DNA from: a virus
Direction: 5' to 3' (one strand)
Length of the DNA stretch: 29,958 nucleotides
IMG/VR virus record: IMGVR_UViG_3300020457_000056
Span: 1 to 29,958 of that record
Positions 15,017 through 29,958 of this stretch are shown here, piece after piece. Made by a program: the position numbers and the translations under genes. How positions within the stretch are numbered: position 1 is the first letter of the stretch; the number at the start of each line of letters is the position of its first letter. The notes below the pieces were generated by a model that was not told the origin of the DNA, ran no database searches, and saw only the letters and a list, made by a program, of their open reading frames with translations.

Positions 15017-16093
15017 TTAGCCTACCATATACATTGACCAAGCGGTCCAGTCTGCATTGTCTGGATGCCCTGCACCATTGAGCCAAATTCTTACTGTATC
15101 ATTAGCATTGATTTTTATCAATCCACACAGTGTACTAGTGACCCATCCGGTTTGATTATCAATTCCGTCAAATGTAAAACCGTTATAATATGCATTATTT
15201 ACGTAAACCTTATAGTTGCCAGCACCAGTGTTATATTGGTTTCCTAACATTAAATTAACTTGATATACACCAGAAGCAGGCGCAGTATAAATTCCGGTAG
15301 CTAATGCAAAATTACTACCTCCTGTTTCCCAAGTTTTAGTAAAGTCATACAGATATCCACTGTTGTATGACCGCGCTGATGTATGTCTGACATAAAAACC
15401 AGGATTATTAGGTTTTGATACAGAGCCATCAGCGTTAATTACCATGTTTAACGTATTGTTTGTAGCAAACTGCATAGGTACATTTTCATACCCCCAATGA
15501 TAAACACGATTGCCAGCCTCCATAGCTACGGCATAACCATCAGCGTTGGTAGTTCCACTCTCATTTGTAGTGAATTGAATACGAGATTGAGAGCTTGCCG
15601 TTGCTTTGTGAATATGTATATCATGTACAGGACTAGTAGTTCCGATGCCAATTCTATTATTAGAACTATCTATTTTTAAAGGACCAATTTCATCTGCAAA
15701 TTCGAGTTGGCCAGTTGCAGTTGCTCCACTTCCAGTTATACTCTTAACTTTTAAAAACTTATTCGCTGTAGGTGAGTTATCTGGTAGCTTTAACGTCCAA
15801 GACTGAGATGAACTATGAGGTGGTGATTGTAATGTAACTCCATGCGAATTTACATGACAGTTTAATTGAATTTTCCCTTCAATTGAACTTCCATCTCCTT
15901 TTGCCTCTAAACTTGGCACACTATTAGTTGATATTAAATTTAACTTCGCGGATGTTACTGCATCATCTTGTATTTCTGAAACTGTAATAGCATTGGCCGC
16001 AATATCTTCAGCAACAATAACATCTGCACCAATCTTTGATGTTCCTATTGCGTTATCCGCTATGCCGTCTGCTGTGATTTTATCTATTGCCAT
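15017..16093 (-). CDS. Adhesin-array protein: repeat N-module, GIGTTSP motif, C1q-like head
   Basis: 358 residues, the last and one of the largest array genes. Residues 1-51 (MAIDKITADGIADNAIGTSK to DDAVTSAKL) are a repeat module shared with the genes at 18650 and 21718. A middle section ends in NNRIGIGTTSP (about 144-154), a motif of phage fibres that often precedes a knob. Next comes KPNNPGFYVRH, then a C1q-like beta-sandwich with GIYTAPASGVYQVNL and a C-terminal TAWSMYMVG. I infer a trimeric receptor-binding or decoration protein. Start ATG with AGGATAAAG ribosome-binding sequence, shared with the upstream gene's stop region. Confidence 0.82.
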   Translation of the reverse strand: MAIDKITADGIADNAIGTSKIGADVIVAEDIAANAITVSEIQDDAVTSAKLNLISTNSVPSLEAKGDGSSIEGKIQLNCHVNSHGVTLQSPPHSSSQSWTLKLPDNSPTANKFLKVKSITGSGATATGQLEFADEIGPLKIDSSNNRIGIGTTSPVHDIHIHKATASSQSRIQFTTNESGTTNADGYAVAMEAGNRVYHWGYENVPMQFATNNTLNMVINADGSVSKPNNPGFYVRHTSARSYNSGYLYDFTKTWETGGSNFALATGIYTAPASGVYQVNLMLGNQYNTGAGNYKVYVNNAYYNGFTFDGIDNQTGWVTSTLCGLIKINANDTVRIWLNGAGHPDNADWTAWSMYMVG

Positions 16094-16097
16094 ATCT

Positions 16098-16823
16098 TTA
16101 TCCTAGTAAATATCCCCAAAAAACAGAACCCGATGGGTTAGTATGATAATATCCAGAAGAAGAGTTTTGGTAAAAAGCAAAATTGTCACTTGCAGATAGT
16201 TGAACTATTACAGATCCTACAACAGTTGGGTAATAATCATCACTTCCGCTACCTCCAGCGTTTATTTGGAAACCACTTGTAGAATTACCGCCATTTATAA
16301 AACCATATATATCTAACGGCTCATATTGGTATGCATATACACTAAAACCAAATATATATCTACCTGCAATCGGAGCTGTAAATTTGTAAGTGCTTGTGTT
16401 ATAATGATTTCCTATATTGTGACCACCTTTTGCAGCTGTTATATTTGGATATCTTAAATACTCTGCGCCCTGCCATTGCCCTGATCCTCCATGTGCAAGA
16501 AAGCTCGGTTGGTTTGGTTTTGTTACACGACCAAGACCATCAACCTTAAAATCTTCATTTCCACCATAATCTTGAACAATAAATGTACCAGCACCAGAAT
16601 TATTTGCACCACCTTTAGCGACAAGTGCTGTACCATTTCCACTTCCAGCTCCATTATGGAAAAACCCAGCATAATCAGAACCAGTGGATGTTGAAGAATG
16701 TAAAGTATAACTAGGAGATGTAGTTCCTATACCAACTCTATTATTGGCAGAATCAACTTTAATTGTAGATGTATCTACTGTAAGATCTGTTGTTGTCACG
16801 CCAGTATTTGTAATGGTTGTCAT
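16098..16823 (-). CDS. Adhesin-array protein: GIGTTSP motif and C1q-like head
   Basis: 241 residues. A short N-terminus (MTTITNTGVTTTDLTVDTST) leads to NNRVGIGTTSPSYTLH (27-42), then a Gly-rich segment and GRVTKPNQPSFLAHG. The head has HYNTSTYKFTAPIAGRYIFGFSVY, the F-x-A-P-x-x-G-x-Y-x-F core of C1q/TNF-like trimeric folds, and ends VFWGYLLG. It shares its organisation with both flanking genes, so the three look like diverged duplicates. Its last codons (LLG stop) plus four bases supply the ribosome-binding site of the next gene. Confidence 0.82.
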   Translation of the reverse strand: MTTITNTGVTTTDLTVDTSTIKVDSANNRVGIGTTSPSYTLHSSTSTGSDYAGFFHNGAGSGNGTALVAKGGANNSGAGTFIVQDYGGNEDFKVDGLGRVTKPNQPSFLAHGGSGQWQGAEYLRYPNITAAKGGHNIGNHYNTSTYKFTAPIAGRYIFGFSVYAYQYEPLDIYGFINGGNSTSGFQINAGGSGSDDYYPTVVGSVIVQLSASDNFAFYQNSSSGYYHTNPSGSVFWGYLLG

Positions 16824-16827
16824 ATCT

Positions 16828-17637
16828 TTATCCTATTAAAAATCCATAAAAAGAATTTCTCGGTGTTGAACCATATTGTGAAAATGTACCACTTCCATTA
16901 TAATATGTACCTACTACAAAATCATTTACAGCCAGGTCGTATAAAAAATGACATTGTATTTGATCAAAGCTTTGTGATGCAGATGCGTTGCTCCCAATGT
17001 ACGCACCTCCAGATGTATCGCTATTTTTGCTAATGTAGATAAGTTGGTTATTCCCACTGTATGATTGGGCACGACAGATAGACAAGCCAAACATATATTT
17101 CCCAGCTACTGGAGCAGTAAATCTACCAGTAGAATTATTATAGTGGCCTCCATTGTCATAGCTTTGACCTATGTTACCAAATTGATGAAAATAACCGTAA
17201 CCACCGCTAGTGTTAGTCATAGTTGGATTACCATAAGTTAAAAAAGAAGGGTGATTAGGCTTAACTACATAGCCGCCATTTACAATATTTAAATGATTAC
17301 CACCAGAAATACCCATCTTAATACCACCACTGGCGCTAGTATTATATGATGTTATCATCAAAGGTCTATTCGCATCACCTTCTGTTCTATAGTTTGCACC
17401 GTCCCACAACCCATAATTTACTTGATGACCACTGCTGTTTTGTAGTTTTATTCTTGACGATATACCTACAATATCAAGATCAACCGAAGGTGTTGTAGTT
17501 CCTATACCAACTCTATTATTAGTGGCATCAACTTTAAGTGTTGTTGTGTCAACGGCAATAGAACCATCCGCTGCAAGTGTGATATTATTACCACTTGCAC
17601 TCGAGTGTTTTAGATGTTCTAGCTCAAGTGTAGACAA
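16828..17637 (-). CDS. Adhesin-array protein: GIGTTTP motif and C1q-like head
   Basis: 269 residues. The start is TTG at 17637: it yields MSTLELEHLKHSS, matching sister genes that begin MSTL, and AAGGAA lies about nine bases upstream. Then DATNNRVGIGTTTPS (37-51), VKPNHPSFLTYG, and the C1q-like core HYNNSTGRFTAPVAGKYMFGLS, ending SFYGFLIG. Probably a trimeric knob. It is the second gene of the unit opened by the 92-residue helical protein. Confidence 0.8.
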   Translation of the reverse strand: MSTLELEHLKHSSASGNNITLAADGSIAVDTTTLKVDATNNRVGIGTTTPSVDLDIVGISSRIKLQNSSGHQVNYGLWDGANYRTEGDANRPLMITSYNTSASGGIKMGISGGNHLNIVNGGYVVKPNHPSFLTYGNPTMTNTSGGYGYFHQFGNIGQSYDNGGHYNNSTGRFTAPVAGKYMFGLSICRAQSYSGNNQLIYISKNSDTSGGAYIGSNASASQSFDQIQCHFLYDLAVNDFVVGTYYNGSGTFSQYGSTPRNSFYGFLIG

Positions 17638-17641
17638 TTAA

Positions 17642-17920
17642 TTATTCCTTTGCTGCCATCGCTGCTTCGGCATCTGCATTACGCTGAGCACCGGTTTTTA
17701 CAACACCAAGTTCAAAAGCCTGAGCAACTTGTGCATCAACTCCAACCGCCATTGCAACTTCATTCGCATTACAATGAGCAACTAAAGCCGCGATAATTTC
17801 TTCTTGTGCAACTCTTGCACGATTATGAAGAGCATTATCAGCCCAGTCTTGAACACTGGCCGCTGCATACTCAAGACACTTGTTTTGTGTGTCCGTAAGT
17901 TTTACAGTAATATCAACCAT
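17642..17920 (-). CDS. Small helical protein, first gene of its late unit
   Basis: 92 residues, Ala-rich and predicted helical, with LTDTQNKCLEYAA and QDWADNALHNRARVAQEEII. Similar short proteins with DWxxNxxxxRARxA occur beside structural or fibre genes in marine phages, but I cannot name a function. It lacks the beta pattern of its neighbours and sits right after a late promoter with a good AAGGAGA site. An assembly factor for the three adhesins that follow is one guess. Confidence 0.75.
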   Translation of the reverse strand: MVDITVKLTDTQNKCLEYAAASVQDWADNALHNRARVAQEEIIAALVAHCNANEVAMAVGVDAQVAQAFELGVVKTGAQRNADAEAAMAAKE

Positions 17921-17942
17921 GTTTTTCTCCTTTCATTTTTTT

Positions 17943-17950
17943 TATTTATA
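17943..17950 (-). promoter_or_regulatory. T4-type late promoter inside the adhesin array
   Basis: Exact TATAAATA in the 31-base gap after the C1q-like gene ending at 17952. The predicted start is near 17937, followed by AAGGAGA and the ATG at 17920. It drives the 17642-15017 unit. Confidence 0.85.
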
Positions 17951-17951
17951 A

Positions 17952-18653
17952 TTATCCTAATAAATATCCCGTAACTCTTATACCAAAATTAGCGTCAGCA
18001 TACGCTTCTGAAATTGAAGTTGAATAAGGAACTATATAATCTCCTGCTGTTAAACTCATTAATGCTGTCCCTGCAACTGACATATGTGAATCTGCCTTGT
18101 AAGACTGATAACCTTGAATAGTGATTGTTGGAAATGTACTTGAACCTCCTTCAGACGCAGAGTTAAGTTGAAACCCAACAGACCCATAGTCATCTGCAAC
18201 TTGCATTCGTATAGAACCGTGCATGGCAAAAACATATACTCCTGTTACAGGAACAACGTATTTTAAATATTTACCACTGCCTATTGGATGTGTTTCGAAA
18301 GTAAGAGTGCCACCACCAACATTAAATTCTGTAGTGGTGTTTGCACTTAACCATATGGGAATAGGTGTATGATAGTTAGTATCATAAACTGTATCACCAT
18401 GATTTTGACCCCATTCTTGAGAGTTAACTGTCTTAGCACTAAAAGCAGGTCTAACAGGAGTTGTTACTCTACCTGTGCTATCAATAGCCAATGCAGTTGT
18501 ACCATTACTATGTTTTAAACCATCTACTGGAATAATATTACTTGCGTCTTTTACTGGAAGTTTTGATAAATCAATAGTGTTTGTCCCTGCCGCTGAAGGA
18601 ACAGTAAGATCAAAATAACCTGATGAATCTCCTGAAACTCTTATTGTACTCAT
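17952..18653 (-). CDS. Adhesin-array protein with C1q-like head
   Basis: 233 residues from the ATG at 18653, which overlaps the upstream stop as ATGA and has AAGGTGG upstream. A GTG at 18665 would add four residues but lacks the same support. The protein shows HSNGTTALAIDSTGRVTTPVRPAF (a PN-PSF-type lead-in), a beta-sandwich with YLKYVVPVTGVYVFAMHG, and a C-terminal RVTGYLLG. It is the last gene of the 22955-17952 unit. Confidence 0.8.
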   Translation of the reverse strand: MSTIRVSGDSSGYFDLTVPSAAGTNTIDLSKLPVKDASNIIPVDGLKHSNGTTALAIDSTGRVTTPVRPAFSAKTVNSQEWGQNHGDTVYDTNYHTPIPIWLSANTTTEFNVGGGTLTFETHPIGSGKYLKYVVPVTGVYVFAMHGSIRMQVADDYGSVGFQLNSASEGGSSTFPTITIQGYQSYKADSHMSVAGTALMSLTAGDYIVPYSTSISEAYADANFGIRVTGYLLG

Positions 18654-19060
18654 ACGACTACCCACCTTGCATTTGAACCAAGCGTCACCGTAACTCCTGA
18701 TCCGAGTGTTATTGGTCCTGCACTTACTGCACTTCGGTTTGCGCCTAAAGAATAATTCGACGAAAGTGTCTGTGCATTTGTGTAAAATACATCTGATTGT
18801 GCGCCAACACTACCGAATGATATTGTACCACTGCCGTTTGTAATAAGAGCTTGACCACTTGTTCCGTCTGATAGATTCAAAGCATCTATACCTACTGAGT
18901 TTGTTGCAAGCTTAGCTGTTGTTACAGCATCATCTTGCAGTTCTGAAACTGTAATAGCATTAGCTGCAATGTCTTCAGCGAGAATAACATCAGTTCCAAT
19001 GTGATCTGTAGTGATTGCATTATCTGGAATTGAATTTGAATGTATTTTTCTTACTGCCAT
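18650..19060 (-). CDS. Short array protein: repeat N-module plus AGPITL C-module
   Basis: 136 residues. Residues 1-51 (MAVRKIHSNSIPDNAITTDH to DDAVTTAKL) match the N-module of the 15017 gene at 37 of 51 positions by hand alignment. The C-terminal 40 residues (NRSAVSAGPITLGSGVTVTLGSNARWVVV) are the small beta module also found at the ends of the 20285 and 25256 genes. It joins two modules used elsewhere, with almost no unique sequence between. It starts by TAATG overlap with the preceding stop. Confidence 0.78.
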   Translation of the reverse strand: MAVRKIHSNSIPDNAITTDHIGTDVILAEDIAANAITVSELQDDAVTTAKLATNSVGIDALNLSDGTSGQALITNGSGTISFGSVGAQSDVFYTNAQTLSSNYSLGANRSAVSAGPITLGSGVTVTLGSNARWVVV

Positions 19061-19704
19061 TATTTTTCCAATCCATATATTTGAATAGATCCATATCTGC
19101 TTGTGTGTGTAGCGCTATTCCAGCTTACAATTCTAAATCCAGTTATCGTTTGAGGATCAAGAACTCTGCAAGAACTTGAAGATTCTTCCAAATACATATT
19201 TTGACCACTACCTAGCCTATATAATAGTGTAGCTTTTGATCTTATAGAAGCTATACCGTCTGGGTGATCCGGAACAGAGATAACAGCTTGACCATGAGAA
19301 TCGTAATCTGTCCCATTTCCTGCCAGCCAAGCTCGAGTTTGTATTCCTGCATAAGTACTATTGTTGTAATCAGGACCACTTGTAGTATTAGAAGGCATCC
19401 ATTGTATAACATTATTATAATCAGCTGATGAGTATTCTCCGCCAGAAGTTCTAAATTTAAACGCTGTCTCATTCCATTGATTTCCGCTAGAAGCAGTATT
19501 TCGATGACTAATATACCAGTACAACATATAGTTTATGTATTTACTTCTATCTACAACATCAAAATCAACTGCTCCTGTATCAGTTGTCCAGTTTTGTGTG
19601 GCTAATTTTACAAAGCCGAGTCCCGCAACTTTACCATCATTGGCAATAGACATCGCGGTGTTTGCGGTAGTGCTTTGAATTGTGCCGACTTTTAGAGTAC
19701 TCAT
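19060..19704 (-). CDS. Array virion protein, beta-rich
   Basis: 214 residues. It opens MSTLKVGTIQSTTANTAMSI, the short N-terminal tag typical of this array. Then comes a distinct domain rich in Tyr/Trp (YINYMLYWYISHRNTASSG, NNVIQWMPSNTTSGPDYNN) ending GFRIVSWNSATHTSRYGSIQIYGLEK. The ITGFRI...GSIxIYGL ending is common in phage structural beta-sandwich proteins. It starts by ATGA overlap; the preceding QEIAG codons carry an AGGAG ribosome-binding site. Likely an adhesin or decoration protein; exact family not recognised. Confidence 0.75.
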   Translation of the reverse strand: MSTLKVGTIQSTTANTAMSIANDGKVAGLGFVKLATQNWTTDTGAVDFDVVDRSKYINYMLYWYISHRNTASSGNQWNETAFKFRTSGGEYSSADYNNVIQWMPSNTTSGPDYNNSTYAGIQTRAWLAGNGTDYDSHGQAVISVPDHPDGIASIRSKATLLYRLGSGQNMYLEESSSSCRVLDPQTITGFRIVSWNSATHTSRYGSIQIYGLEK

Positions 19705-20288
19705 CCTGCAATCTCCTGGACTGTTAGCACTGATACAGTTCTTGGGTCATAATTTCCAGTATTTCTGTCACTGTGAGACCTGTTAATGTACGCTATTGCA
19801 CCTGAACTATTAGCTGTTCCCTGATAATCTTTATATTGAATTTTATAAGTTACCTGAGATGTAGTGTTCGGTGAGTCTAATATATTTATTGGAATTGGAG
19901 ATATATCATACACATCCCAGCCGCTTGTAGTAGTTGAAGAAGAATAAACTTGCGGTCTGCTACCAGCAGCATCACCTACGGATAAAGCTGTACCATTTCT
20001 AACAACTCTAATGTAAGACCTAAAATAATTTTCAGCAACGTTCACAAAGCCAGTAACTAGTATCTTGCTTGATGTTGAACTAGGAGTTATATCTAACGTT
20101 AATCCACTATCAGCGTAACTATTTCCTTGAGCACTAGTAGCTGAAGTTAATGTCATTGACAATGTTTGTAGTACTGCTCCAGGCGAAACAATTGATCCTC
20201 CATCAGTTGCCACTATTTTTTTACCAGTAGGCAAAGTAATTGTGTTACCTGTTTGTGTAGTGATTTGATTTACAGCAAGTGTACTCAT
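19701..20288 (-). CDS. Array sandwich protein of the DSPNTTS / EIAG family
   Basis: 195 residues. N-tag MSTLAVNQITTQTGNTITLP, then PGAVLQTLSM, LDITPSSTSSKILVTG (the ITPK-ANS position in sisters), DSPNTTSQVTYKIQYKD and a C-terminal VLTVQEIAG. These four landmarks in this order define the largest family of the array. It starts by ATGA overlap with the 20285 gene. Inferred to be a trimer-forming surface protein; no enzymatic motif was seen. Confidence 0.78.
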   Translation of the reverse strand: MSTLAVNQITTQTGNTITLPTGKKIVATDGGSIVSPGAVLQTLSMTLTSATSAQGNSYADSGLTLDITPSSTSSKILVTGFVNVAENYFRSYIRVVRNGTALSVGDAAGSRPQVYSSSTTTSGWDVYDISPIPINILDSPNTTSQVTYKIQYKDYQGTANSSGAIAYINRSHSDRNTGNYDPRTVSVLTVQEIAG

Positions 20289-20641
20289 ACTATTGCCAGC
20301 CTTCCTCCGTTAGTAACTGTTAGTGTAACACCGCTCGCAACTGTTAATGGACCGGCCGCAACGGCATTATCAGTTGCCGCAATGGTTACATTAGTATTTA
20401 ACTCTTGTTCATGCACTCTAAAAATATCTTTTTTACCGTTTGTTGTATCGCCTCTTAATGCACCACTTGCATTGTCTCCTTGGAATGCACCTACACCAAG
20501 TGTTACTCCACTGTCAATCTTTGCCGCAGTGATTGCACCGTCTTGAATGTCAGCAGTTGCAACCGCGCCATCAGCAATGTCAGCGGATGTAATAGTTGTA
20601 TCTGAATTAAGTAAATTTGCCAAGTTTCTTGCATTACTCAT
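20285..20641 (-). CDS. Short array protein: repeat N-half plus AAGPLTV C-module
   Basis: 118 residues. The N-half carries decapeptide-like repeats (TSADIADGAVATADIQDGAITAAKI), a pattern of phage-fibre stalk segments. The C-half holds NVTIAATDNAVAAGPLTVASGVTLTVTNGGRLAIV, the small C-module shared with two other array genes. It is joined to both neighbours by ATGA overlaps. Function inferred only from company: fibre tip or connector. Confidence 0.76.
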   Translation of the reverse strand: MSNARNLANLLNSDTTITSADIADGAVATADIQDGAITAAKIDSGVTLGVGAFQGDNASGALRGDTTNGKKDIFRVHEQELNTNVTIAATDNAVAAGPLTVASGVTLTVTNGGRLAIV

Positions 20642-21150
20642 TGTGTCACCTCTGTAAACTTCATGTAAGAGTTACTTCTTGCGTCATAATTAAAATATAC
20701 ATCTGGATAGCTGGAGCTTGGACAAATCATTTGAAGTGTGTAAGTAATTTGCGAAGTTGTGTTGTGATTATCATCAATCGCTCCGTATGCCTGAAAGAGA
20801 TGCAGCTGTGTGTTATTTACGTCGGGACCTCTAAATACATCATAGTTAGAACTAAAATTATGATTAAGATGTTGTGTTGAAGAAAGTTGTGAACCGTTTC
20901 TTAAAATTCTATGATTAAACTGGCACTCTCCAGCATTTCTTTTTCCACAATTTATACTAGCGTCTATGTAAATATGACTGTTAGCAAATTTAGGTGTAAA
21001 ATTGGCCGTAAAAAAAGTAGACCAAGAACTGCCTGAATATATAAACTGAGTAGCATATTTTGTGTGAACCATCTGAACAGGTGTTCCGGCTGGTATCTGC
21101 GCACTTGTAAGAGCTGCCTGCATATTATTTGGAATAGTACTTAATGCCAT
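20638..21150 (-). CDS. Array sandwich protein of the ITPK/NTTSQ family
   Basis: 170 residues. MALSTIPNNMQAALTSAQIP and a PAGTPVQMVHTK lead-in are followed by FTPKFANSHIYIDASINCG (matching ITPKFANSLI in sisters), DNHNTTSQITYTLQM and a C-terminal KFTEVTQ. A GGxGG-like loop is absent. The TAATG start overlaps the preceding stop, within a 24-base sequence that is identical at another junction of the array (29321-29344). Confidence 0.77.
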   Translation of the reverse strand: MALSTIPNNMQAALTSAQIPAGTPVQMVHTKYATQFIYSGSSWSTFFTANFTPKFANSHIYIDASINCGKRNAGECQFNHRILRNGSQLSSTQHLNHNFSSNYDVFRGPDVNNTQLHLFQAYGAIDDNHNTTSQITYTLQMICPSSSYPDVYFNYDARSNSYMKFTEVTQ

Positions 21151-21168
21151 TACTGTGCTATCTCCGTT
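21145..21168 (-). repeat. Junction repeat, copy 1 (TEIAQ stop / next start)
   Basis: These 24 bases are identical to 29321-29344. They encode the end of one adhesin (TEIAQ and TAA) and the start of the next (ATGGCA), with GGAG about 12 bases before the ATG. Two gene pairs 8 kb apart therefore share the same joint. Confidence 0.85.
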
Positions 21169-21695
21169 GCTATGATTGAATTTTCTGAAGTTGAATCAAT
21201 ATATCTAATTTCATTTCCTCCACCACTACTCACATAAAGTTTATAGTTTACTGAACTGGTTGTGTTAGGTGTGTCAAAAGTAAAAGCGTTTATACCTTCA
21301 TTAAAATTATAAGCATTTCCAGAATCTCTATATTTAGAACCCCACTGAAGAACTCTACCATTGATTCCAGCGCCAATATTAGTTGCGCTTCCACCAGATA
21401 TTGTTCTGTAAACTGTGGTCAAAAAATATTCTTCATTACTGGCACTTAAATGTAACCACCAAACAGTTTGGTATTCTATTTTTATAAGACTGTTTGCAAA
21501 CTTAGGAGTTATATTTACAGATAAAGCAGTTGAAACCATACTTGTTGAAGTAGTGCTGGAATTACCACTTGTTTGTGTTGTTCGTTGTATTTGTATAACA
21601 TGGCCTGCTGGCATCTGCAAGTTAGTAACACCACTCATATCGACTGATGTTGCAGTGGTTGCACCTTGGATTGTATCTATTGCGAGTGTACTCAT
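21150..21695 (-). CDS. Array sandwich protein of the DTPNTTS / TEIAQ family
   Basis: 181 residues with every family landmark: MSTLAIDTIQGATTATSVDM, MPAGHVIQIQ, VNITPKFANSLIKIEYQ, DTPNTTSSVNYKLYVS and the C-terminal SIIATEIAQ. The type example of this family in the window. Its ATG overlaps the stop of an 8-codon ORF (TAATG) that itself overlaps the preceding gene. The last codons form the GGAG ribosome-binding site for the next gene. Confidence 0.8.
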   Translation of the reverse strand: MSTLAIDTIQGATTATSVDMSGVTNLQMPAGHVIQIQRTTQTSGNSSTTSTSMVSTALSVNITPKFANSLIKIEYQTVWWLHLSASNEEYFLTTVYRTISGGSATNIGAGINGRVLQWGSKYRDSGNAYNFNEGINAFTFDTPNTTSSVNYKLYVSSGGGNEIRYIDSTSENSIIATEIAQ

Positions 21696-21721
21696 TAGCT
21701 TGGCACCGTTATTAGAGTCAT
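21695..21721 (-). other. Eight-codon bridging ORF (MTLITVPS)
   Basis: ATG at 21721-21719 overlaps the TGA of the preceding adhesin (ATGA). Its TAA at 21697-21695 overlaps the ATG of the next (TAATG). It may pass ribosomes across the only non-overlapping gap in this stretch, or be the remnant of a deleted module. Chance cannot be excluded. Confidence 0.35.
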
Positions 21722-22550: not shown

Positions 22551-22955
22551 TTAAGAAGGTTCAGTTGGCCATGTAACATTTGTCAGTACACCGTCTTCAA
22601 GTTTAGGTTCTGCAGTTGCTGGAAGATCTCTTAGATCTTTACGATATGTTTTCCAAGCAGCTGACATAGTAACATCACTATTACCCATCCAGTCTGTTGC
22701 TGCTAGTTTTTCATTTCGTTGTGAACGAAGTTCGTTCATAGGTTCAGCATCAGTAAGCTCTTTTTGCTTTTCTGTAATAGCTGCCCATGTTGTTCCCCAA
22801 TCTGCAGGATCTTGAGACTCAATAGCCGATCCGTTTGAATCTGCGCCAGTTACCTTTGAAAACATAGTTTTAAACTCGTCCTCAGAAGTAGGTTCTCCTC
22901 TCAATACCCATTCTTGAATTCCTAATGCACTCAATGCTGATGCGACGTCTGCCAT
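22551..22955 (-). CDS. Phage tail assembly chaperone-like protein
   Basis: 134 residues. The C-half has NELRSQRNEKLAATDWMGNSDVTMSAAWKTYRKDLRDLPA (about 74-113). This arginine-rich RNxxLxxTDW...WxxYRxxLRDLP pattern is characteristic of the phage tail-assembly chaperone (Phage_tail_APC) type found next to tail-fibre genes. The N-half (IQEWVLRGEPTSEDEFKTMFSKVTG) is less distinctive. As first gene of its unit, directly after a late promoter, it would be made before the adhesins it could help fold or mount; that role is inferred. Confidence 0.72.
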   Translation of the reverse strand: MADVASALSALGIQEWVLRGEPTSEDEFKTMFSKVTGADSNGSAIESQDPADWGTTWAAITEKQKELTDAEPMNELRSQRNEKLAATDWMGNSDVTMSAAWKTYRKDLRDLPATAEPKLEDGVLTNVTWPTEPS

Positions 22956-23013: not shown

Positions 23014-23604
23014 TTATACTTTAATCTCTTCGGCTATTAATAATCCTCTATCAATTATTGCATTTGCAGGAATCCCGGGAGCATAGCCTGCGCTCGGTAC
23101 TGTGCCTATATTATCAGTAAAATATTGTTGTGCTTGTGAACTAGCTCCATACTGTTTAACATATATTTCATATCGTAAAACAGATGTAGTGTTTGGAGAA
23201 TCAGTAAAGTAATAACTCAAGTGTGGATAAAAATCATGTGTATAACTGCTACGATTCAAATAATGATCCCATCCACCTCCCATTTTCCATGAGTTCATTG
23301 CGCCCGAACCTATTTTTCTGTATATAGCCCAGTTGGCTCCAGCATAACTACTGCTCGTATTAAATGCAGTCTTAGCGTCCCAGTGAAGCTTCACCATATT
23401 ACTTGCTGCTGTAAGTGTAATGTCAACAAACAACCCAGTCGCCTGAAATGAGGTGGGAGATGCAGTTGTAACAGCATTATTGATTCTACCAATCTGTGTT
23501 TGCAATACAGCACCAGTAGGAAAGTTAGATGTCATATCTGTCGGCATCTGAGCATTCGTAACTTGACCTGATACGCCTCGATGATTAATTTTAGTTAGTG
23601 CCAT
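23014..23604 (-). CDS. Array sandwich protein of the DSPNTTS family
   Basis: 196 residues. MALTKINHRGVSGQVTNAQMP is followed by FPTGAVLQTQIGRIN, VDITLTAASNMVKLHWD, DSPNTTSVLRYEIYVKQY and a C-terminal IIDRGLLIAEEIKV. It is the last gene of its unit. The start ATG uses the AGGATAAAG joint supplied by the C1q-type gene before it. Likely a trimeric adhesin subunit; no catalytic motif. Confidence 0.78.
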   Translation of the reverse strand: MALTKINHRGVSGQVTNAQMPTDMTSNFPTGAVLQTQIGRINNAVTTASPTSFQATGLFVDITLTAASNMVKLHWDAKTAFNTSSSYAGANWAIYRKIGSGAMNSWKMGGGWDHYLNRSSYTHDFYPHLSYYFTDSPNTTSVLRYEIYVKQYGASSQAQQYFTDNIGTVPSAGYAPGIPANAIIDRGLLIAEEIKV

Positions 23605-23608
23605 ATCT

Positions 23609-24184
23609 TTATCCTAAAAAATGTCCTGTGAACCAGTTAAAAGTTCGAGAATGTGATGAGTCATTTCCTTGTGCAGTAAAACTGCCGTCGTAGTATTGCA
23701 ATACTACTCTTACATTATCATTTGCTTCAAGTTTTGCTAAGACGGTTATACTCATCATAGAGTCACTAGATACAGTTCTTGCGTGCATTCGAGCTGTACC
23801 ACCTAATCCGTTATAACTATCATTTATTTGAATTTCAAATTCTGCATTACCGTTATTTACACAACCTATGTGTAAATGAAACTGATACATTCCCGCAATA
23901 GGCGCTGTAAATATTCCATTTTGATTATTATAGTGATTACCTACGTTATGGCATTTCATGCTGGTGTCAGAGCCCGTGGTTAAAGTGTTCCAAACTATTA
24001 TTGGAGCTCCACTTGCACTTGTACCTCCTCCAGCGTTGGCTGCTGTGATTGCAACTCCTCCACCTTTTGTTACAGCGAATGAAGGCTGATTAGGTAAAGA
24101 TACACGGCCAGCCGAATCAAATGTCATTGATGTTGTAGTACCAGCCACACTTTGAATTTTATCTACTTTTAAATTACTAACCAT
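23609..24184 (-). CDS. Adhesin-array protein with C1q-like head
   Basis: 191 residues. N-tag MVSNLKVDKIQSVAGTTTSM, then SAGRVSLPNQPSFAVTKG, HYNNQNGIFTAPIAGMYQFHLHIG (C1q-like core), LEANDNVRVVLQYYDGSF and a C-terminal WFTGHFLG. The lead-in plus head unit is the same as in the 16098 and 16828 genes, but the GIGTTSP segment is missing. Start by TAATG overlap after TEIAG codons carrying GGAG. Confidence 0.82.
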   Translation of the reverse strand: MVSNLKVDKIQSVAGTTTSMTFDSAGRVSLPNQPSFAVTKGGGVAITAANAGGGTSASGAPIIVWNTLTTGSDTSMKCHNVGNHYNNQNGIFTAPIAGMYQFHLHIGCVNNGNAEFEIQINDSYNGLGGTARMHARTVSSDSMMSITVLAKLEANDNVRVVLQYYDGSFTAQGNDSSHSRTFNWFTGHFLG

Positions 24185-24714
24185 TAGCCTGCAATCTCCG
24201 TAGTAAACATTGTTGTGGCAGAACCTCCAGAACTAGTACCCCATCCAAAATAAGAATTATAACTGCTATTATGTGTGTAAACATAAGGTCGATAACTTAT
24301 GCTTTGACCTAAAGAATAACTTGGAGTATCAATTATATTAATTTCACAATCTTGCCATGTATTTGATCCTCCTGGAAAAGCATGAGGTTTACCTGTAGTG
24401 TGACCATAGCTACCTCCAGCTACACTTCTAAATATCATAACAGCAAGATATTGTCCTGATGGAGCATATATTTGAGTATGAAAATTAATAAGAATTCTAC
24501 TACCAGCTTGTTTCGGAGTTATTGTGCTTGTGACTTGTGTAATTGCAGTATTAGTAGAAGAGTTGTTGATAGTAATTTGCACATCATTTTCTTGAGTAAG
24601 CGGAGACACTTGAACAATATGACCTGCGGGCATCTTTAAATTTGTTGCGTTACTTAGATCAACATCGGTTGCTGCTGTCTTTCCTCTGATATCATCTACA
24701 AATAATATACTCAT
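24184..24714 (-). CDS. Array sandwich protein of the TEIAG family
   Basis: 176 residues. Landmarks: MSILFVDDIRGKTAATDVDL, MPAGHIVQVSP, STITPKQAGSRILINFHTQ, DTPSYSLGQSISYRPYVY and TTMFTTEIAG. The PNTT motif has become PSYSLGQ, showing drift in the loop while the strands are kept. ATGA start overlap with the upstream gene; the last codons hold CGGAG for the next one. Confidence 0.78.
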   Translation of the reverse strand: MSILFVDDIRGKTAATDVDLSNATNLKMPAGHIVQVSPLTQENDVQITINNSSTNTAITQVTSTITPKQAGSRILINFHTQIYAPSGQYLAVMIFRSVAGGSYGHTTGKPHAFPGGSNTWQDCEINIIDTPSYSLGQSISYRPYVYTHNSSYNSYFGWGTSSGGSATTMFTTEIAG

Positions 24715-25256
24715 TGTGCTATCTCCAACATATTTGTATCAAATTGATAAGTAGCATTTGCTACTCCCCATGCATCAGTACAGTACCATCCAGAACCAGA
24801 AGTTGTATTACTACCTTTGACATAATATCTGTAGGTTATTGCAGTACCAGCAGGTTGATTTGCACTATGCGTAAAAGTTAATCCAGTAAAACCAGTTTCA
24901 TGATTATTAGTTGAATACCTTACAAAATGTTTTTGACATAAATTTGATGCATAACTATCAATACTTGATCTTAGTGCGACTGACCAAATACAATTGACTG
25001 CTTGAGTTTGTATAGGGATATCAGTAACAATCATAATTTTTGAGTTTGCTAGTTTTGTTGTTACTGTGCCTAGTGTTGCAGTATTGACATATGATGTATT
25101 AGGACTAATACTGCCATACGAACTATATGGCACATGGGTGACATTTACTACATGACCGGGTGCGTGTAGCGTTTGACCAGAAGGTACTAAAATATGATTT
25201 GCATTTGCGCCAGATGATAGTCCTCTTATCGTTGTTACTTCTAATTCACTTGCCAT
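24711..25256 (-). CDS. Array sandwich protein of the EIAQ family
   Basis: 181 residues. MASELEVTTIRGLSSGANAN, a HAPGHVVNVTHV lead-in, TVTTKLANSKIMIVTDIP, PAGTAITYRYYVKGS and a C-terminal FDTNMLEIAQ. It lacks the PNTT loop. Joined by TAATG to the gene before and ATGA to the gene after, with TTGGAG inside its own last codons as the next ribosome-binding site. Confidence 0.78.
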   Translation of the reverse strand: MASELEVTTIRGLSSGANANHILVPSGQTLHAPGHVVNVTHVPYSSYGSISPNTSYVNTATLGTVTTKLANSKIMIVTDIPIQTQAVNCIWSVALRSSIDSYASNLCQKHFVRYSTNNHETGFTGLTFTHSANQPAGTAITYRYYVKGSNTTSGSGWYCTDAWGVANATYQFDTNMLEIAQ

Positions 25257-25717
25257 TATACTACCGTCATTGTCCCGTTAATTGTTAGTGTTGCGTTCAG
25301 TGTCAAAGGACCTGCCGCCATTGCATTTTTTGTTGATGTGATAGTTACGTTTGTATCTACACTATTGTTATTTACCCTTATCGGCGTGTGGTCCGCTACC
25401 ATGTCACTTGCCATCTTTGTAGCACCAACCGAATTGTCTGTTACTGTATTTACATTTCCAACTTCACCCATAACAACAATAAAGTCAACTACGTCTGAAG
25501 CTGCAAGTGCTGCGCCGAATGTAATGTTCGCTCCACTGATAGTAAAACCTACACCCGGCTCTTGAATAACACCGTTAACAGACACTAACATCTTCTCAGC
25601 TTGACCCGGCTCAAAATCAGATGAGCTGTAAGTCATTCCATAAGTTTGATTACCGTTTGTAGTAATACCGTCGAGTTTTTTAAATTCGCCCTGAGGTGTT
25701 TTTCCAATATAAGGCAT
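25256..25717 (-). CDS. Array protein: GKTP/NGVIQEP N-half plus AAGPLTL C-module
   Basis: 153 residues. MPYIGKTPQGEFKKLDGITT and MLVSVNGVIQEPGVGFTISG (43-62) belong to a fibre N-terminal family common in marine phages (YIGxxP, then INGVIQEP). The C-terminal NVTITSTKNAMAAGPLTLNATLTINGTMTVV is the short C-module shared with the 18650 and 20285 genes. Coupled to both neighbours by TAATG overlaps. Confidence 0.8.
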   Translation of the reverse strand: MPYIGKTPQGEFKKLDGITTNGNQTYGMTYSSSDFEPGQAEKMLVSVNGVIQEPGVGFTISGANITFGAALAASDVVDFIVVMGEVGNVNTVTDNSVGATKMASDMVADHTPIRVNNNSVDTNVTITSTKNAMAAGPLTLNATLTINGTMTVV

Positions 25718-25899
25718 TATTCAGCATCCTTAATAGTTAGTGTTCCGGCTTCAACCTGCCGCATGATTTCTGCGTAATACCTATTGTCTTTATTTTTAGG
25801 TACAAAACAAACAACATCATCTTCCATTGTAACGATTAAAACATCATGTTCAGTTTTACCATCTTCACTCATTTGTTTTTTTACTTGTTTAAACAACAT
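25717..25899 (-). CDS. Small conserved-looking protein, 60 residues
   Basis: MLFKQVKKQMSEDGKTEHDV, then VCFVPKNKDNRYYAEIMRQVEAGTLTIKDAE. The NRYYAEIMRQVEAGxLxIxDA ending resembles short proteins that accompany phage fibre genes (often TTIEPAD-like in other phages), possibly assembly factors, but I have no firm family. It is charged and lacks the beta pattern of its neighbours. AAGGA overlapping the previous stop serves as ribosome-binding site. Confidence 0.7.
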   Translation of the reverse strand: MLFKQVKKQMSEDGKTEHDVLIVTMEDDVVCFVPKNKDNRYYAEIMRQVEAGTLTIKDAE

Positions 25900-25910
25900 A
25901 ATAATATTCC

Positions 25911-27026
25911 TTAAAGTTCTGCGTCTGCTGTAAAATGAAAGGCCATAAAATGACCAAGAGTTTGACTGTTCGCATAAGTAGTATATCCATCTTCACCGAT
26001 TCTACTTATATAATTACCAGCGTTATTGCCAGGCCCATTATCATAGTTACTTATTTCATTTATAGCGCCATCATATGGATTATAGTTAGTAACACTTGGA
26101 GCGGTTCTCATTTTTCCACCAGAGAACACGCTATAGTAATGAGGTGTGCTTGAGTTTCTATTTGCTAACCACATTCTTGTGTGACTACCAGTGCTTGATT
26201 CTGAGTATCCGGGCGCTCTTGCATAATCATAAGATTTTTGATAATATCTCTGACATAACGCAAGTTCTTGTGCGAATGACCGGTACTCAAAATCTGTAGC
26301 AACAGCGCCAAGTTCTACTTGAACTCCAGTAATTTGCCATGTAGCAGCGTTGGTTGCAGCCAATTGAACAGTACCAGATGGTGCTGTGGCATTACCACTA
26401 TAATATTGATTTGCAGTTTGATGAAAATTAGAACCAGTTCCTAAATCAAACCATAAACTAAATCCAGAACCTGTACCACCTTGAGCTGTCCATGCAGTGT
26501 TTGAGTCTGCTGTAAGGGTTAAAGTTTTATATTCCCAAGTATTAGCAGCATTAATTGTATATGTTGTTGGAAAAGAACGAGCTGGTGATGATGGTTTCAC
26601 ACGAACTGCAAGTCCAAAATTACCAGTAAGAGTAGATTTTACCCAAAAAGAAATCGTAAATTGTTTAGGAGATGATGTACCAAATCCAAAATGTTGTACA
26701 TCATTTACCTCTAATGCTGTATTATATCCATAGTAATCACCACTACCAATTGTAGTAGCCGCTAATGAAGTAATTTTTGCACTATATTTAAAATCTGAGT
26801 TTGGTACATCATCTACTTGTGCAACCCCAATTTTACTTCCAGCACTAACAAATGTAGCCCAACGGTCTATTGTATAAATATTGCCTGTTGAACCAATAGT
26901 ATAAGATGAAGCTCCATGGCCATAACCTCTTTGGTCTATGTTTTGAGCACCATTGATAATAACATTTCTACGACCAAGGTTAGGAACGTTTGCAATATTT
27001 GAATGTGATATTCTTGATCTTGTCAT
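25911..27026 (-). CDS. Tail-fibre protein with carbohydrate-binding-like sandwich domain
   Basis: 371 residues, the largest array gene. It shows the well-known phage fibre pattern: RRNVIINGAQNIDQRGYG (19-36), YTIDRWATFV (51-60), FTISFWVKSTLTGNFGLAVR, NTWEYKTLTLTADSNTAW and WQITGVQVELGAVATDFEYRSFAQELALCQRYYQ near residues 230-263. The jelly-roll part resembles carbohydrate-binding modules. The C-terminal 100 residues (RMWLANRNSSTPHYYSVFSGG and on) probably form the variable receptor-contact face. Strongest candidate for a true receptor-binding protein in the array. Confidence 0.87.
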   Translation of the reverse strand: MTRSRISHSNIANVPNLGRRNVIINGAQNIDQRGYGHGASSYTIGSTGNIYTIDRWATFVSAGSKIGVAQVDDVPNSDFKYSAKITSLAATTIGSGDYYGYNTALEVNDVQHFGFGTSSPKQFTISFWVKSTLTGNFGLAVRVKPSSPARSFPTTYTINAANTWEYKTLTLTADSNTAWTAQGGTGSGFSLWFDLGTGSNFHQTANQYYSGNATAPSGTVQLAATNAATWQITGVQVELGAVATDFEYRSFAQELALCQRYYQKSYDYARAPGYSESSTGSHTRMWLANRNSSTPHYYSVFSGGKMRTAPSVTNYNPYDGAINEISNYDNGPGNNAGNYISRIGEDGYTTYANSQTLGHFMAFHFTADAEL

Positions 27027-27030
27027 ATTG

Positions 27031-27954
27031 TTATCCTATTAAGTAACCAAAAAATACTGTAGCGCCATTTGCAGCAGAACCATATATATTTCCATTCCAA
27101 TCTGAGACACTACTTCTAGATATAACGCCTTCTAAATAATCATTTGCTGAAAGACTAAGTACATCATAAACATCAAAAGTATGATACGAATTTCCTGATC
27201 CCCATCCGTCTGATATTGCCTCAGCGCCCTGCATTGCTGTCATTGGATAACTAGAGCCATTCACTCTGCAATACACACTCATATATCTTGTTTCAGTATT
27301 AGGACTAGGATTACCTACTACAAATCTAACACCTACCATATACTTGCCCGGAGTAGCTATTGTTATTCTTGAAGTTGTTGCTGTGACTCCTTGAGAAAAA
27401 GTAATAGCTTCATAAGTTAGTGGAGTAGTGTTGTTGACGGCAGGAACTAAGGTTGAACCACTATATCCACTTAATCTCCAGCATGGTTGATTGGCGTTTG
27501 TTGTTGCACCACCAAAAGCAAGTGCACCGCTACTGGCGATTGTCATTGCCGTAGTGTCATTGGTGTGTTTAATTGATGAAGTACGTAATACATTAGCATC
27601 TAAGTTACCAGAAACTGCAATGTTTGTATCTAGCTTTGCTGATGTAACAGCATTTGCCTGAATTTTTCCAGTACCTACAGTATTATCTCCAGGCGCTCTT
27701 GTTCCAACAGTTCTTCCTTGATATACTACGTAACAATCATCTGTTGAAGCAAGAGCTTCAGTAAATGTAAGCGTTGTACCAGATACGCCATAAGAAGTTG
27801 TAGGTTCCTGTCTTACGTGATTAATAAAAACTTCGATATCTTCTGGTGAAGTTACAACAGCATTCAGTGTGTACGTGGTACCACCGTTGCCAGTAATATC
27901 TTGCTTGGCAATTGATGAATATTGTTCTACAGGTTGATTACCTATAAATGCCAT
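27031..27954 (-). CDS. Array protein: GNQP/RQEP N-half, AVTSAKL linker, C1q-like head
   Basis: 307 residues, built from three modules seen separately elsewhere. FIGNQPVEQYSSIAK with VFINHVRQEPTTSYGVSG (41-58) is the NGVIQEP-type N-half. GTGKIQANAVTSAKLDTNIA is a stalk repeat. After NANQPCWRLSGYSG comes a C1q-like head with TIATPGKYMVGVRFV, LSANDYLEGVISRSS and the C-terminal VFFGYLIG. Its LIG stop region supplies AGGAT for the next gene. Confidence 0.82.
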   Translation of the reverse strand: MAFIGNQPVEQYSSIAKQDITGNGGTTYTLNAVVTSPEDIEVFINHVRQEPTTSYGVSGTTLTFTEALASTDDCYVVYQGRTVGTRAPGDNTVGTGKIQANAVTSAKLDTNIAVSGNLDANVLRTSSIKHTNDTTAMTIASSGALAFGGATTNANQPCWRLSGYSGSTLVPAVNNTTPLTYEAITFSQGVTATTSRITIATPGKYMVGVRFVVGNPSPNTETRYMSVYCRVNGSSYPMTAMQGAEAISDGWGSGNSYHTFDVYDVLSLSANDYLEGVISRSSVSDWNGNIYGSAANGATVFFGYLIG

Positions 27955-28286
27955 TATGAGATCTCCAATACTCCAATTGTTACATCAATCGTTGATGCGT
28001 GTCCTGCTTTAATCTTTAGTATATCTCCGGTTTCCATAATGTATTTTTGACCGGCTAAAACTTCAAGTGTAGTGTTCGATGGAATTGTTACTGTAGGTAT
28101 CAATTCGGTTGTTACACTTGTTGATGTATCTGTAAGTTTAACGAGTGCGGTACTATCTGTTGCTGTCTTGTTTGCAATTGCTACGCCAAGAATAATTGAT
28201 GTTGTAGAAGCTGGTGCTGTGTACAACGTAGCATCCGATGCATTGTCAACATTTGATATTAACGCGTTTTTAAATGTTTCTGCCAT
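27954..28286 (-). CDS. Small beta-sandwich virion protein
   Basis: 110 residues. LYTAPASTTSIILGVAIANKT, LIPTVTIPSNTTLEVLAGQKYIMETGDILKI and a final VTIGVLEIS. This pattern (YTAPAxTTxIIxGxxIAN ... GSTLEVLxGQKxxLxxGD) recurs in small phage tail or fibre proteins and looks like a compact jelly roll. A structural role is likely; the exact position in the virion is unknown. TAATG joint with the next gene. Confidence 0.75.
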   Translation of the reverse strand: MAETFKNALISNVDNASDATLYTAPASTTSIILGVAIANKTATDSTALVKLTDTSTSVTTELIPTVTIPSNTTLEVLAGQKYIMETGDILKIKAGHASTIDVTIGVLEIS

Positions 28287-28287
28287 A

Positions 28288-28683
28288 TTATCCTAACGCA
28301 AGGCTTAACGCTATTGCTGTCCCTTTCTTTGCAAATGTGTTTTGAAAATTAGCCGATACTTTATCAGCCGTGATACTTCCGTCCGCAACCGTGGAAGCTT
28401 CTGATCCTACACCGCCAAGTAGTACTCCGAAAAAGTTTGCTCCCGTTGCTGGTGCGGTTGTAAATGTAATCTGTGAACCTCCACTGGCTAATATATAAGT
28501 TGTGATTGGTTCTTGAATAACGCCGTTGATTGATATGATAAGTTGTGTTGGAGAACCAGCTGTAACCGCAGTACCTCCACTTGTTAGATTGAATGTAGTT
28601 AAACTTCCATTGAAGCTGGATGTTAATGAATCTAATTTATTAAACTGCCCTGAGGCAGGTTGATTACCTATGTAACTTGTCAT
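28288..28683 (-). CDS. Array protein of the GNQPASGQF / NGVIQEP family
   Basis: 131 residues. MTSYIGNQPASGQFNKLDSL, LIISINGVIQEPITTYILA (48-66) and VADGSITADKVSANFQN. The first two are a familiar N-terminal fibre domain in marine T4-like phages; the last resembles the start of a stalk that stops early. It is the first gene after the late promoter at 28715. It may be an adaptor onto which other subunits assemble; that is inference. Confidence 0.8.
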   Translation of the reverse strand: MTSYIGNQPASGQFNKLDSLTSSFNGSLTTFNLTSGGTAVTAGSPTQLIISINGVIQEPITTYILASGGSQITFTTAPATGANFFGVLLGGVGSEASTVADGSITADKVSANFQNTFAKKGTAIALSLALG

Positions 28684-28714
28684 CGAGTTCCCTATCCGTC
28701 GACGTTATTTAATC

Positions 28715-28722
28715 TATTTATA
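28715..28722 (-). promoter_or_regulatory. T4-type late promoter inside the adhesin array
   Basis: Exact TATAAATA 5 bases past the stop of the 28727 gene. The predicted start is near 28709; the gene begins at 28683 with AGGGA upstream. Drives the unit running to 23014. Confidence 0.86.
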
Positions 28723-28726
28723 TACT

Positions 28727-29326
28727 TTATGCCTTCAATTCGGTTACGTCCATCCAATTAACTTGAGAATCACCGCCACCGTCTCTTGATCTTACGTTGT
28801 ACCATCTTGTTTGTGTCCATAACACAAGCTCATACCTTATAGTTTGTCCGACTGGTACTGTAGGAGTCGGATCCATATATGACATATTTTTTTCTCGTGT
28901 ATCATGTGTATTTCCATAAGTTCCATAGTTACGTGTGAAACCAAATGGAACATCAGTTTGAAACCAACTTGTTCCTGTTCCAGGATGATTACTAGTAGTT
29001 CTATTTCCCAGAGGAGAATCTAAAGCGCCTACAAATGCAGAATTTGATCCAGCCGGAGTAGTTCTTCTAAATGCACAGAAAAAATCATGACTGTCCATAT
29101 TGGAGTCATTTCCTTGAACACCAAAAGCAATTCCGCATCGAATCATATAATTAGAGTTGGCAGCTTTTGCAGTCAAGTTAACTGTCAGCAATGTATATCC
29201 AGCAGAAGGTGAACCACTGTTGTAGTTTGTATATGAACCATCTCTAGCTATTACGGTTTGTAATACAGAACCAGAAGGCAAGTCAGAATGTGTTACTACT
29301 GGATTTTTTGTTACTATTAGTGCCAT
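28727..29326 (-). CDS. Array sandwich protein, divergent member
   Basis: 199 residues. MALIVTKNPVVTHSDLPSGS with VLQTVIARDGS, LTAKAANSNYMIRCGIAFG (ITPKFANS position), TPTVPVGQTIRYELVLW and a C-terminal WMDVTELKA. It contains long Ser/Thr/Asn loops (GNRTTSNHPGTGTSWF). Fits the sandwich family though the PNTT loop is replaced by PTVPVGQ. Last gene of its unit, directly before a late promoter. Start in a 24-base junction repeat. Confidence 0.76.
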   Translation of the reverse strand: MALIVTKNPVVTHSDLPSGSVLQTVIARDGSYTNYNSGSPSAGYTLLTVNLTAKAANSNYMIRCGIAFGVQGNDSNMDSHDFFCAFRRTTPAGSNSAFVGALDSPLGNRTTSNHPGTGTSWFQTDVPFGFTRNYGTYGNTHDTREKNMSYMDPTPTVPVGQTIRYELVLWTQTRWYNVRSRDGGGDSQVNWMDVTELKA

Positions 29327-29344
29327 TACTGTGCTATCTCCGTT
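29321..29344 (-). repeat. Junction repeat, copy 2 (TEIAQ stop / next start)
   Basis: Identical 24 bases to 21145-21168, again spanning TEIAQ, the TAATG overlap and an internal GGAG ribosome-binding site. Confidence 0.85.
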
Positions 29345-29826
29345 AAAATTATTCTTGTAGCTCTTAGTGGTAAATTGGCTGTAGGCCCTTGATAGTTCCA
29401 GAGATAATTTGTTAAAGTCGAACCGCTCATATTAATAATAGGTTTATATGTTATTGTATTTGTAGTATTAGGCTGATCAATTACGCATATACTGGGGCTC
29501 CAAGGCATCCAATTACCTACAGCGTTATATCCCCAAAAATACCCTATGTCAGTGTTATCTCTTCTTAATCCTGCGCCAGCGTAGTTAACGTTATTGATTA
29601 AAACATTAACAAACATCTCTGCTCTGATTAAACTGTTCGCAAACTTTGGAGTAATTGAAACTTCAAGAGGTGTGCTAAAGTTAACTACATTCCATGTATT
29701 AGCTGCTGTTGGTTGGACATTGCTTTGGCTGTTCAATCCATGAGCTATTTGAACTTGATGACCGGGGACATGAACACCATGTGATGCTGTATGTTCTTTG
29801 ATATTATCTACAAAAATTGTTCCCAT
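29326..29826 (-). CDS. Array sandwich protein of the DQPNTTN / TEIAQ family
   Basis: 166 residues. MGTIFVDNIKEHTASHGVHV, VPGHQVQIA (20-28), VSITPKFANSLIRAEMFV (57-74), DQPNTTNTITYKPI (117-130) and the C-terminal RIILTEIAQ. The opening IFVDNI matches ILFVDDI of the 24184 gene. The start ATG uses the AGGATAAAG joint after the C1q-type gene cut by the window edge. Confidence 0.78.
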   Translation of the reverse strand: MGTIFVDNIKEHTASHGVHVPGHQVQIAHGLNSQSNVQPTAANTWNVVNFSTPLEVSITPKFANSLIRAEMFVNVLINNVNYAGAGLRRDNTDIGYFWGYNAVGNWMPWSPSICVIDQPNTTNTITYKPIINMSGSTLTNYLWNYQGPTANLPLRATRIILTEIAQ

Positions 29827-29830
29827 GTCT

Positions 29831-29958
29831 TTATCCTATTAAATAACCCATACAGTTTGAAAAAGCAGCTCCACCATATACGCCATAAGTGCTGGAATTA
29901 GTAGACCTTAAATACCATGAAAACGTATCGTTAACACCCATCTCATAAACTATAGTTA
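29831..29958 (-). CDS. Partial adhesin, C-terminal 41 residues of a C1q-like head
   Basis: Only the 3' end is present; the gene enters from the right edge. The readable residues include VYEMGVNDTFSWYLR, STNSSTYGVYGGAAF and the final MGYLIG before TAA. The ending is the same as in the 27031 gene (GYLIG) and close to others (GYLLG, GFLIG), placing it in the C1q-like group. AGGATAAAG at its stop serves the next gene. The array therefore extends beyond the window. Confidence 0.72.
   Translation of the reverse strand, partial: TIVYEMGVNDTFSWYLRSTNSSTYGVYGGAAFSNCMGYLIG

Follow-up and report, generated by a model that had tools for sequence, protein, structure and literature searches.

Shine-Dalgarno motifs in the terminal codons of adhesin genes and the edges of domain replacement in the host-recognition array of a T4-like marine phage fragment

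The gene array and its joints

The stretch of DNA analysed here (the window) is the IMG/VR virus record IMGVR_UViG_3300020457_000056, 29,958 bases long, with all layout-forming genes on the minus strand. It is a fragment of a T4-like marine phage, whose structural run consists of neck genes, sheath stabiliser, terminase, sheath, tube, portal, prohead proteins and capsid. The run is preceded by an array of short fibre and adhesin genes at 15017-29958, which adjoins the neck genes at 14004-14957 and 13068-14000. Our subject is the joints between the array genes, where the last codons of one gene would carry the Shine-Dalgarno sequence (SD) of the next, and the relation of these joints to the replacement of adhesin domains. 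In pelagimyophages and cyanomyophages a hypervariable "host recognition cluster" beside the neck genes holds the tail-fibre genes (PMC7029224), and the array fits it in place and character: it is a hypervariable fibre island beside T4-like neck genes, and relatives with a 97-98% identical neck protein carry different fibre genes. By its terminase the window is nearest to phage C48C1 (67%), followed by the Melnitz phages and cyanophages; no close isolate was found at the DNA level, and no phage record matched the array.

The decamer TAGGATAAAG occurs exactly four times in the window, always on the minus strand and always at a gene joint (16096-16105, 16826-16835, 23607-23616 and 29829-29838), each copy continuing as [AC]... 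ATG. A first-order Markov model predicts 0.09 copies of the decamer, and 0.00015 copies of the 15-mer TAGGATAAAGATATG, which is present three times. An unprompted repeat search returned the joint as the largest direct-repeat family (D1, six copies). These four joints, together with the shorter variants at 27024 (TAGGATAACAATATG) and 28284 (TAGGATAATATG), were correctly located in a preliminary description of this DNA. The window also holds a second joint family, ending ACGGAGATAGCACAGTAATG (EIAQ*, the asterisk denoting the stop codon), that was not part of that description. One D1 copy, at 17931-17969, which that description also lacks, lies in a loose position: TTAGGATAA ends the gene 17952-18665, and the next gene (17642-17920) begins 31 nt further on with an AAAGGAG of its own, so that the motif is not the SD in use there.

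Tuning of terminal codons

The statistics that follow are based on gene ends from 190 non-redundant loci (1.95 Mb), namely IMG/VR contigs fetched without selection on the joint, the window and phage C48C1, with genes called by a simple open reading frame (ORF) caller. A scan of viral contigs for the joint pattern gave many matches in C1q-type genes as well as chance matches and matches in other phage genes; it was kept out of the statistics to avoid selection on the joint.

Judged from the sequences, a C-terminal peptide motif appears to carry the SD of the next gene in at least three families of joints: [LIV]G*, encoded as NTA GGA TAA, EI[AG][QG]*, containing GGAGAT, and GDLA*, containing GGAGAC. 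The motif lies within the upstream coding sequence at a working distance from the next ATG. The choice of synonymous codons and of the stop codon varies with that distance. Genes with LG ends that stop 3-6 nt before the next ATG read NTA GGA TAA, and those about 9 nt away read NTA GGT TAG GAG GAA CAC ATG, the SD being shifted into the stop codon. Of the C1q-like LG* genes, 30/35 at spacing 1-6 have GGA, compared with 9/28 at spacing 7-12 (p 2e-5); at the latter distance the SD is shifted to TAG-GAGG. Against the expected frequencies for LG* this amounts to 86% versus 28% at the shorter spacing and 32% versus 22% at the longer one. The EI[AG][QG]* genes overlap the next gene, and their Glu codon is GAG in 69/71 overlap joints versus 5/16 loose ones (Fisher p 1e-8). 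In contigs that hold both kinds, E[ILV]..* genes have GAG in 43/43 cases with the SD inside the gene and in 10/27 with the SD outside.

Synonymous shuffling gave the same picture. In the well-sampled classes, overlapping and tight joints form an SD duplex that exceeds the shuffles in strength by 1.1-3.2 kcal/mol, versus a difference of 0.0 kcal/mol for ordinary genes with an outside SD. In well-sampled joint classes selection for an inside SD is seen in ordinary genes too. By the codon and shuffle results SD tuning is therefore a general property of packed genes, of which the C1q case is one instance. The earlier proposal that the final codons supply the ribosome-binding site of the next gene accordingly gains support from the joints, the codon counts and the shuffle test alike, though use of these motifs in vivo can only be presumed. 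The joint is not as fixed as that proposal held: LG-ending genes also occur with GGT-TAG-GAGGAACACATG, with GGATGA overlaps and with loose joints.

Edges of homology and replacement of domains

Homology blocks were defined by at least 80% identity. Of their 986 left ends, 48% fall within -25..+20 of a stop codon versus 6% expected, while the right ends cluster 60-100 nt past the previous stop, which means that conserved blocks often extend from the joint to about 20-60 codons into the gene. Conserved DNA lies at the edges of modules beside unrelated sequence. A strong excess of homology boundaries at joints and a peak of identity there, with a fall inside the genes, are both observed, as the preliminary description had anticipated. 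Where a homologous downstream gene follows an unrelated upstream gene, identity stays around background up to -13 and reaches 0.58-0.70 at -11..-8. In four classes of SD position the boundary precedes the SD by a median of 1, 2, 2 and 5.5 nt, while relative to the stop codon it ranges from -14 to 0; where the SD is far downstream the boundary falls between the stop codon and the SD. The homology boundary tracks the SD, not the stop codon. The upstream-homology profile of the whole dataset is dominated by core neck genes and was little used.

In 465 non-redundant pairwise comparisons (for each pair of distinct gene ends a single one was retained; these are not independent events) both flanks are homologous and one gene differs in its C-terminal part only. 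A median of 27 N-terminal codons is kept, and the 3' boundary lies 12 nt before the end of the stop codon; it is thus mostly the C-terminal domain that is exchanged rather than, as first supposed, the whole gene. Replacements of LG by LG ends number 98, of EI by EI ends 168, and between LG and EI ends 11. The clearest case is the pair of loci L308 and L314, which are 90% identical to codon 23 of the fibre gene and then carry a C1q and an EI-type domain, respectively. From AATAGGATAGAAAAATG on they are again 98.4% identical over 728 bp, and AATAGGATAGAAAAATG is read in two frames, ..ATA GGA TAG (YLIG*) versus ..CAA TAG (EIAQ*). The pair L325/L326 shows the same two frames, one EI allele is common to L314, L324 and L326, and a MAIRKI-type gene is preceded by 20 different alleles. 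The sequence TAGGATAA, which stops two of three frames, is entered through TAG in L001 and L007 and through GGA TAA in L002, upstream of the same gene family. Over all loci, joints are entered in the Gly frame 82 times, in the TAG frame 18 times and in the third frame 3 times.

As a measure of exchange we took the fraction of homologous partners that cease to be homologous at the joint. This fraction is 0.71 for loose LG genes, 0.52 for LG genes at spacing 1-6 and 0.74 at 7+, 0.74 for loose EI genes and 0.54 for overlapping ones, compared with 0.21-0.29 for other genes. No rise in exchange with the presence of a joint was found when loose and tight edges of LG and EI genes were compared. As loose adhesin genes are exchanged as often as tight ones, exchange does not seem to be driven by the sequence of the joint, contrary to the original idea that this sequence enables it; exchange follows the adhesin family. 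Moreover, a joint of 8-15 bp is contiguous with the homologous downstream gene, so that a crossover anywhere in that gene would give the same picture. The joint is best understood as sequence under a double constraint that marks the limit of exchange, rather than as a site of recombination.

Similar arrangements are found in cultured phages. In the podovirus HMO-2011 (positions 5140-9955) at least five fibre genes end in GDLA* with the motif GGAGAC in those codons, and TTAGGATAAAGATATG forms the end of its annotated C1q gene. A fibre gene of Melnitz has a different C-terminal part in Melnitz-3, and from its stop codon on the two phages are again 100% identical.

Adhesin folds and other features of the window

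All the genes upstream of the LG joints had been described as C1q-type. A C1q domain is proven for three of the six, 16098, 16828 and 23609, which match PF00386 with 35.3, 29.2 and 43.6 bits (cut-off 23.7; E 1e-6 to 4e-11); it was not demonstrated for 27031-27954, which gave no Pfam hit, for 28288-28683, which is of a tail-fibre type (phrog_18673), or for the ORF cut by the window edge. At E 0.1 neither 27031-27954 nor 17952-18665 matched PF00386. The AlphaFold2 model of 23609-24184 (pLDDT 72.9) matches Caprin-2, Cbln1 and C1q heads (E 3e-8, TM-score relative to the target 0.65-0.81), a predicted jelly roll of the C1q/TNF type. For the EI-type gene 29326-29826 the matches of the model are TNF-like lectins and further jelly rolls of the C1q/TNF type. 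EI-type adhesins occupy 29326-29826, 21150-21695 and 24184-25256; neither of the two tested against Pfam (29326-29826 and 24711-25256) gave a match, and the TNF-like lectin jelly roll predicted for 29326-29826 makes them a candidate family of sugar-binding phage adhesins. As both models end with the last beta strand, the terminal motif is, by these models, a feature of the fold end whose codons are tuned to the SD. Genes of S-SRM01 and DC33 with LG* and an outside SD agree with this. The features of the array are listed in Table 1.

Table 1. Features of the array in the window
Positions	Strand	Feature	Remarks
15017..29958	-	Host-recognition gene array of short fibre/adhesin genes, ~15 kb	Location as in PMC7029224
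16091..16105	-	LG joint TAGGATAAAGATATG	C1q gene 16098-16823 (..GYLLG*) into 15017-16093
16821..16835	-	LG joint TAGGATAAAGATATG	C1q gene 16828-17637 (..GFLIG*) into 16098-16823
23602..23616	-	LG joint TAGGATAAAGATATG	C1q gene 23609-24184 (..GHFLG*) into 23014-23604
29824..29838	-	LG joint TAGGATAAAGACATG	ORF cut by window edge (..GYLIG*) into 29326-29826
27024..27038	-	Variant LG joint TAGGATAACAATATG	27031-27954 (..GYLIG*) into 25911-27026
28284..28295	-	Short LG joint TAGGATAATATG	28288-28683 (..LALG*, not C1q) into 27954-28286
17952..17959	-	TAGGATAA in loose position	End of 17952-18665 (..GYLLG*); D1 copy
29324..29343	-	Second joint class, ACGGAGATAGCACAGTAATG (EIAQ*)	Putative SD GGAG inside codons T-E; D17 repeat
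27952..27968	-	EI-type joint TTGGAGATCTCATAATG (LEIS*)	
24711..24728	-	EI-type joint TTGGAGATAGCACAATGA (EIAQ*)	4-nt overlap
24182..24201	-	EI-type joint ACGGAGATTGCAGGCTAATG (EIAG*)	
21148..21167	-	EI-type joint ACGGAGATAGCACAGTAATG (EIAQ*)	D17 repeat
19701..19719	-	EI-type joint CCAGGAGATTGCAGGATGA (EIAG*)	4-nt overlap
16098..17637	-	Two adjacent C1q-domain fibre genes, 16098-16823 and 16828-17637	Pfam PF00386
23609..24184	-	C1q-domain fibre gene	Last predicted strand residues 184-189, LG = 190-191; PF00386 and AlphaFold2
29326..29826	-	EI-type adhesin, predicted TNF/C1q-like jelly roll	Final strand residues 157-164, EIAQ = 163-166

A 114-nt repeat of 79% identity (D3; 15944-16057 and 18911-19024) corresponds to an N-terminal anchor, 'DNAI.T..IG.DVIVAEDIAANAITVSE.QDDAVT', common to two fibre genes; anchors thus recur within one genome. 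Within the array, 22551-22955 (minus strand) encodes a tail assembly chaperone family protein (PF16778, E 5e-13); relatives of it occur in Melnitz, HMO-2011 and cyanophages. A carbamoyltransferase gene at 1167-2489 (minus strand; Pfam Carbam_trans_C, E 2e-45, and Carbam_trans_N, E 5e-35) lies immediately downstream of the capsid gene and is followed by the unassigned gene 212-1186; both are possible auxiliary metabolic or modification genes. A search for tRNAs in the window found none.

What sets the boundary

We consider it probable that the array is a packed series of adhesin genes with SD-tuned terminal codons, in which C-terminal domains are replaced and the boundary is set by the retained SD. 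Each gene would begin with a conserved N-terminal anchor, some 20-60 codons long, and continue into a hypervariable receptor-binding domain at the C-terminus. Tight packing would place the SD of one gene into the last codons of the gene before it. Each adhesin family would end where its last beta strand does, in a characteristic motif ([LIV]G*, EI[AG][QG]* or GDLA*), and selection would favour synonymous codons of that motif, and a stop codon, that place AGGA or GGAG at a suitable distance from the next ATG. Replacement of C-terminal domains would take place between an upstream flank, formed by the gene start and the N-terminal anchor, and a downstream flank beginning at the next SD, with crossovers probably lying mainly in these longer homologous flanks. 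Only recombinants that keep the SD of the next gene would survive well, so that selection on translation may settle the boundary between homologous and non-homologous DNA at the SD, and the joint would stay conserved while its neighbourhood changes.

Several observations weigh against this account. Loose LG* C1q genes retain GGA in 14/18 cases, statistically not different from tight joints (p 0.47), and the window itself retains NTAGGATAA in the loose position at 17931-17969, where SD use gives no explanation. SD use alone is therefore insufficient for such genes, in which GGA may be a leftover from a former tight donor position. The SD of LG joints is also weaker (mean -4.1 kcal/mol) than that of EI (-6.5) and GDLA (-6.8) joints. 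Finally, the loci are related, many come from similar samples, and loci and pairs are phylogenetically non-independent.

A bolder version of the explanation, which we put forward tentatively and would sooner doubt than accept, regards LG*, EI[AG]Q* and GDLA* as a small set of portable ends. Their codons would combine stop and SD, so that domains could be replaced, even across adhesin families, with the downstream genes not silenced; the AGGA version TAGGATAA would end an incoming gene in two of three frames and keep the next SD. The preliminary description instead saw in the fixed joint the homology through which whole adhesin genes recombine, kept for that purpose. The boundary excess at joints, the joint common to unrelated genes and the predominance of LG/LG and EI/EI over LG/EI replacements would agree with it. 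We nevertheless think it unlikely, as the lack of a tight joint does not make the exchange of adhesin genes rarer, several joint versions exist, LG/EI replacements occur with different joint types, homology continues into the downstream gene so that no crossover in the joint is needed, and the N-terminus is kept in most exchanges.

A pure protein constraint would require phage C1q domains to close with LG at the last strand, the DNA repeat being no more than this peptide in A/T-rich codon usage. It would account for LG* at the end of loose C1q genes and of the S-SRM01 and DC33 genes, and for LG and EIAQ closing the last predicted strand. It is contradicted as the sole cause, and we give it little credence: GGA depends on spacing, EI genes switch between GAG and GAA with the position of the SD inside one contig, and the same joint DNA also serves in a second frame. 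For the amino-acid motif itself such a constraint is still the reason. That unrelated fibre genes were joined at short repeats during assembly deserves mention, since most loci are metagenomic contigs. Assemblers usually join on longer k-mers than the 8-17 bp of the shared joints. Since cultured HMO-2011 and Melnitz/Melnitz-3 show this joint and C-terminal replacements of this kind too, chimeric assembly is unlikely as a general cause, and we regard it as highly improbable. Illegitimate or microhomology crossovers at the joint, for instance at the AATA common to ..CACAATA and ..TTTAATAGGA, filtered for an intact SD and later spread by ordinary recombination in the flanks, are a real possibility as the origin of the junctions, if short of a probable one. 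Two-frame entry over the same joint and the boundary that follows the SD are compatible with them, and illegitimate exchange near gene boundaries has been considered for mycobacteriophages (PMC3029335).

If replacement with a retained SD is the correct reading, it provides a rule for the exchange of receptor-binding domains in abundant marine phages, with the first ~20-60 codons as upstream edge and the next SD as downstream edge, and a codon-level signature for detecting such exchanges in metagenomes. It suggests that many mosaic boundaries are set by selection on downstream translation more than by sequence-specific recombination, which is testable elsewhere.

Comparison with known systems

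Phage operons are known in which a gene's SD lies inside the 3' end of the preceding gene and the two are translationally coupled. The inside-SD joints of the well-sampled classes described here resemble this in being under synonymous selection for the SD, but differ in that the SD coincides both with the conserved peptide motif at the C-terminus of each adhesin family and with the limit of domain exchange. An open-access literature search of limited extent found nothing specific on SDs in adhesin C-termini or on a cassette-like joint. Metaviromic islands of marine phages contain C1q receptor-binding proteins whose C1q domains under-recruit while the N-terminal end recruits more (PMC3909814), the same division as in the array genes here; the joint, the SD and the position of the exchange boundary are not described in that work, where the words "Shine" and "recombination" are absent. 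The host recognition cluster (PMC7029224) shares with the array the hypervariable fibre island beside the neck genes of T4-like marine phages, but an analysis at the level of joints was not found there. Short conserved boundary sequences as mosaic junctions are named, and attributed to earlier work, in PMC3029335, which also reports that the C-terminal 18 residues of Island3 gene 68 match those of the upstream gene. Here too a short conserved sequence lies at the edge of exchanged modules. The boundary, however, tracks the SD, and exchange is equal without a tight joint, so that the sequence has the look of a constraint rather than of an anchor.

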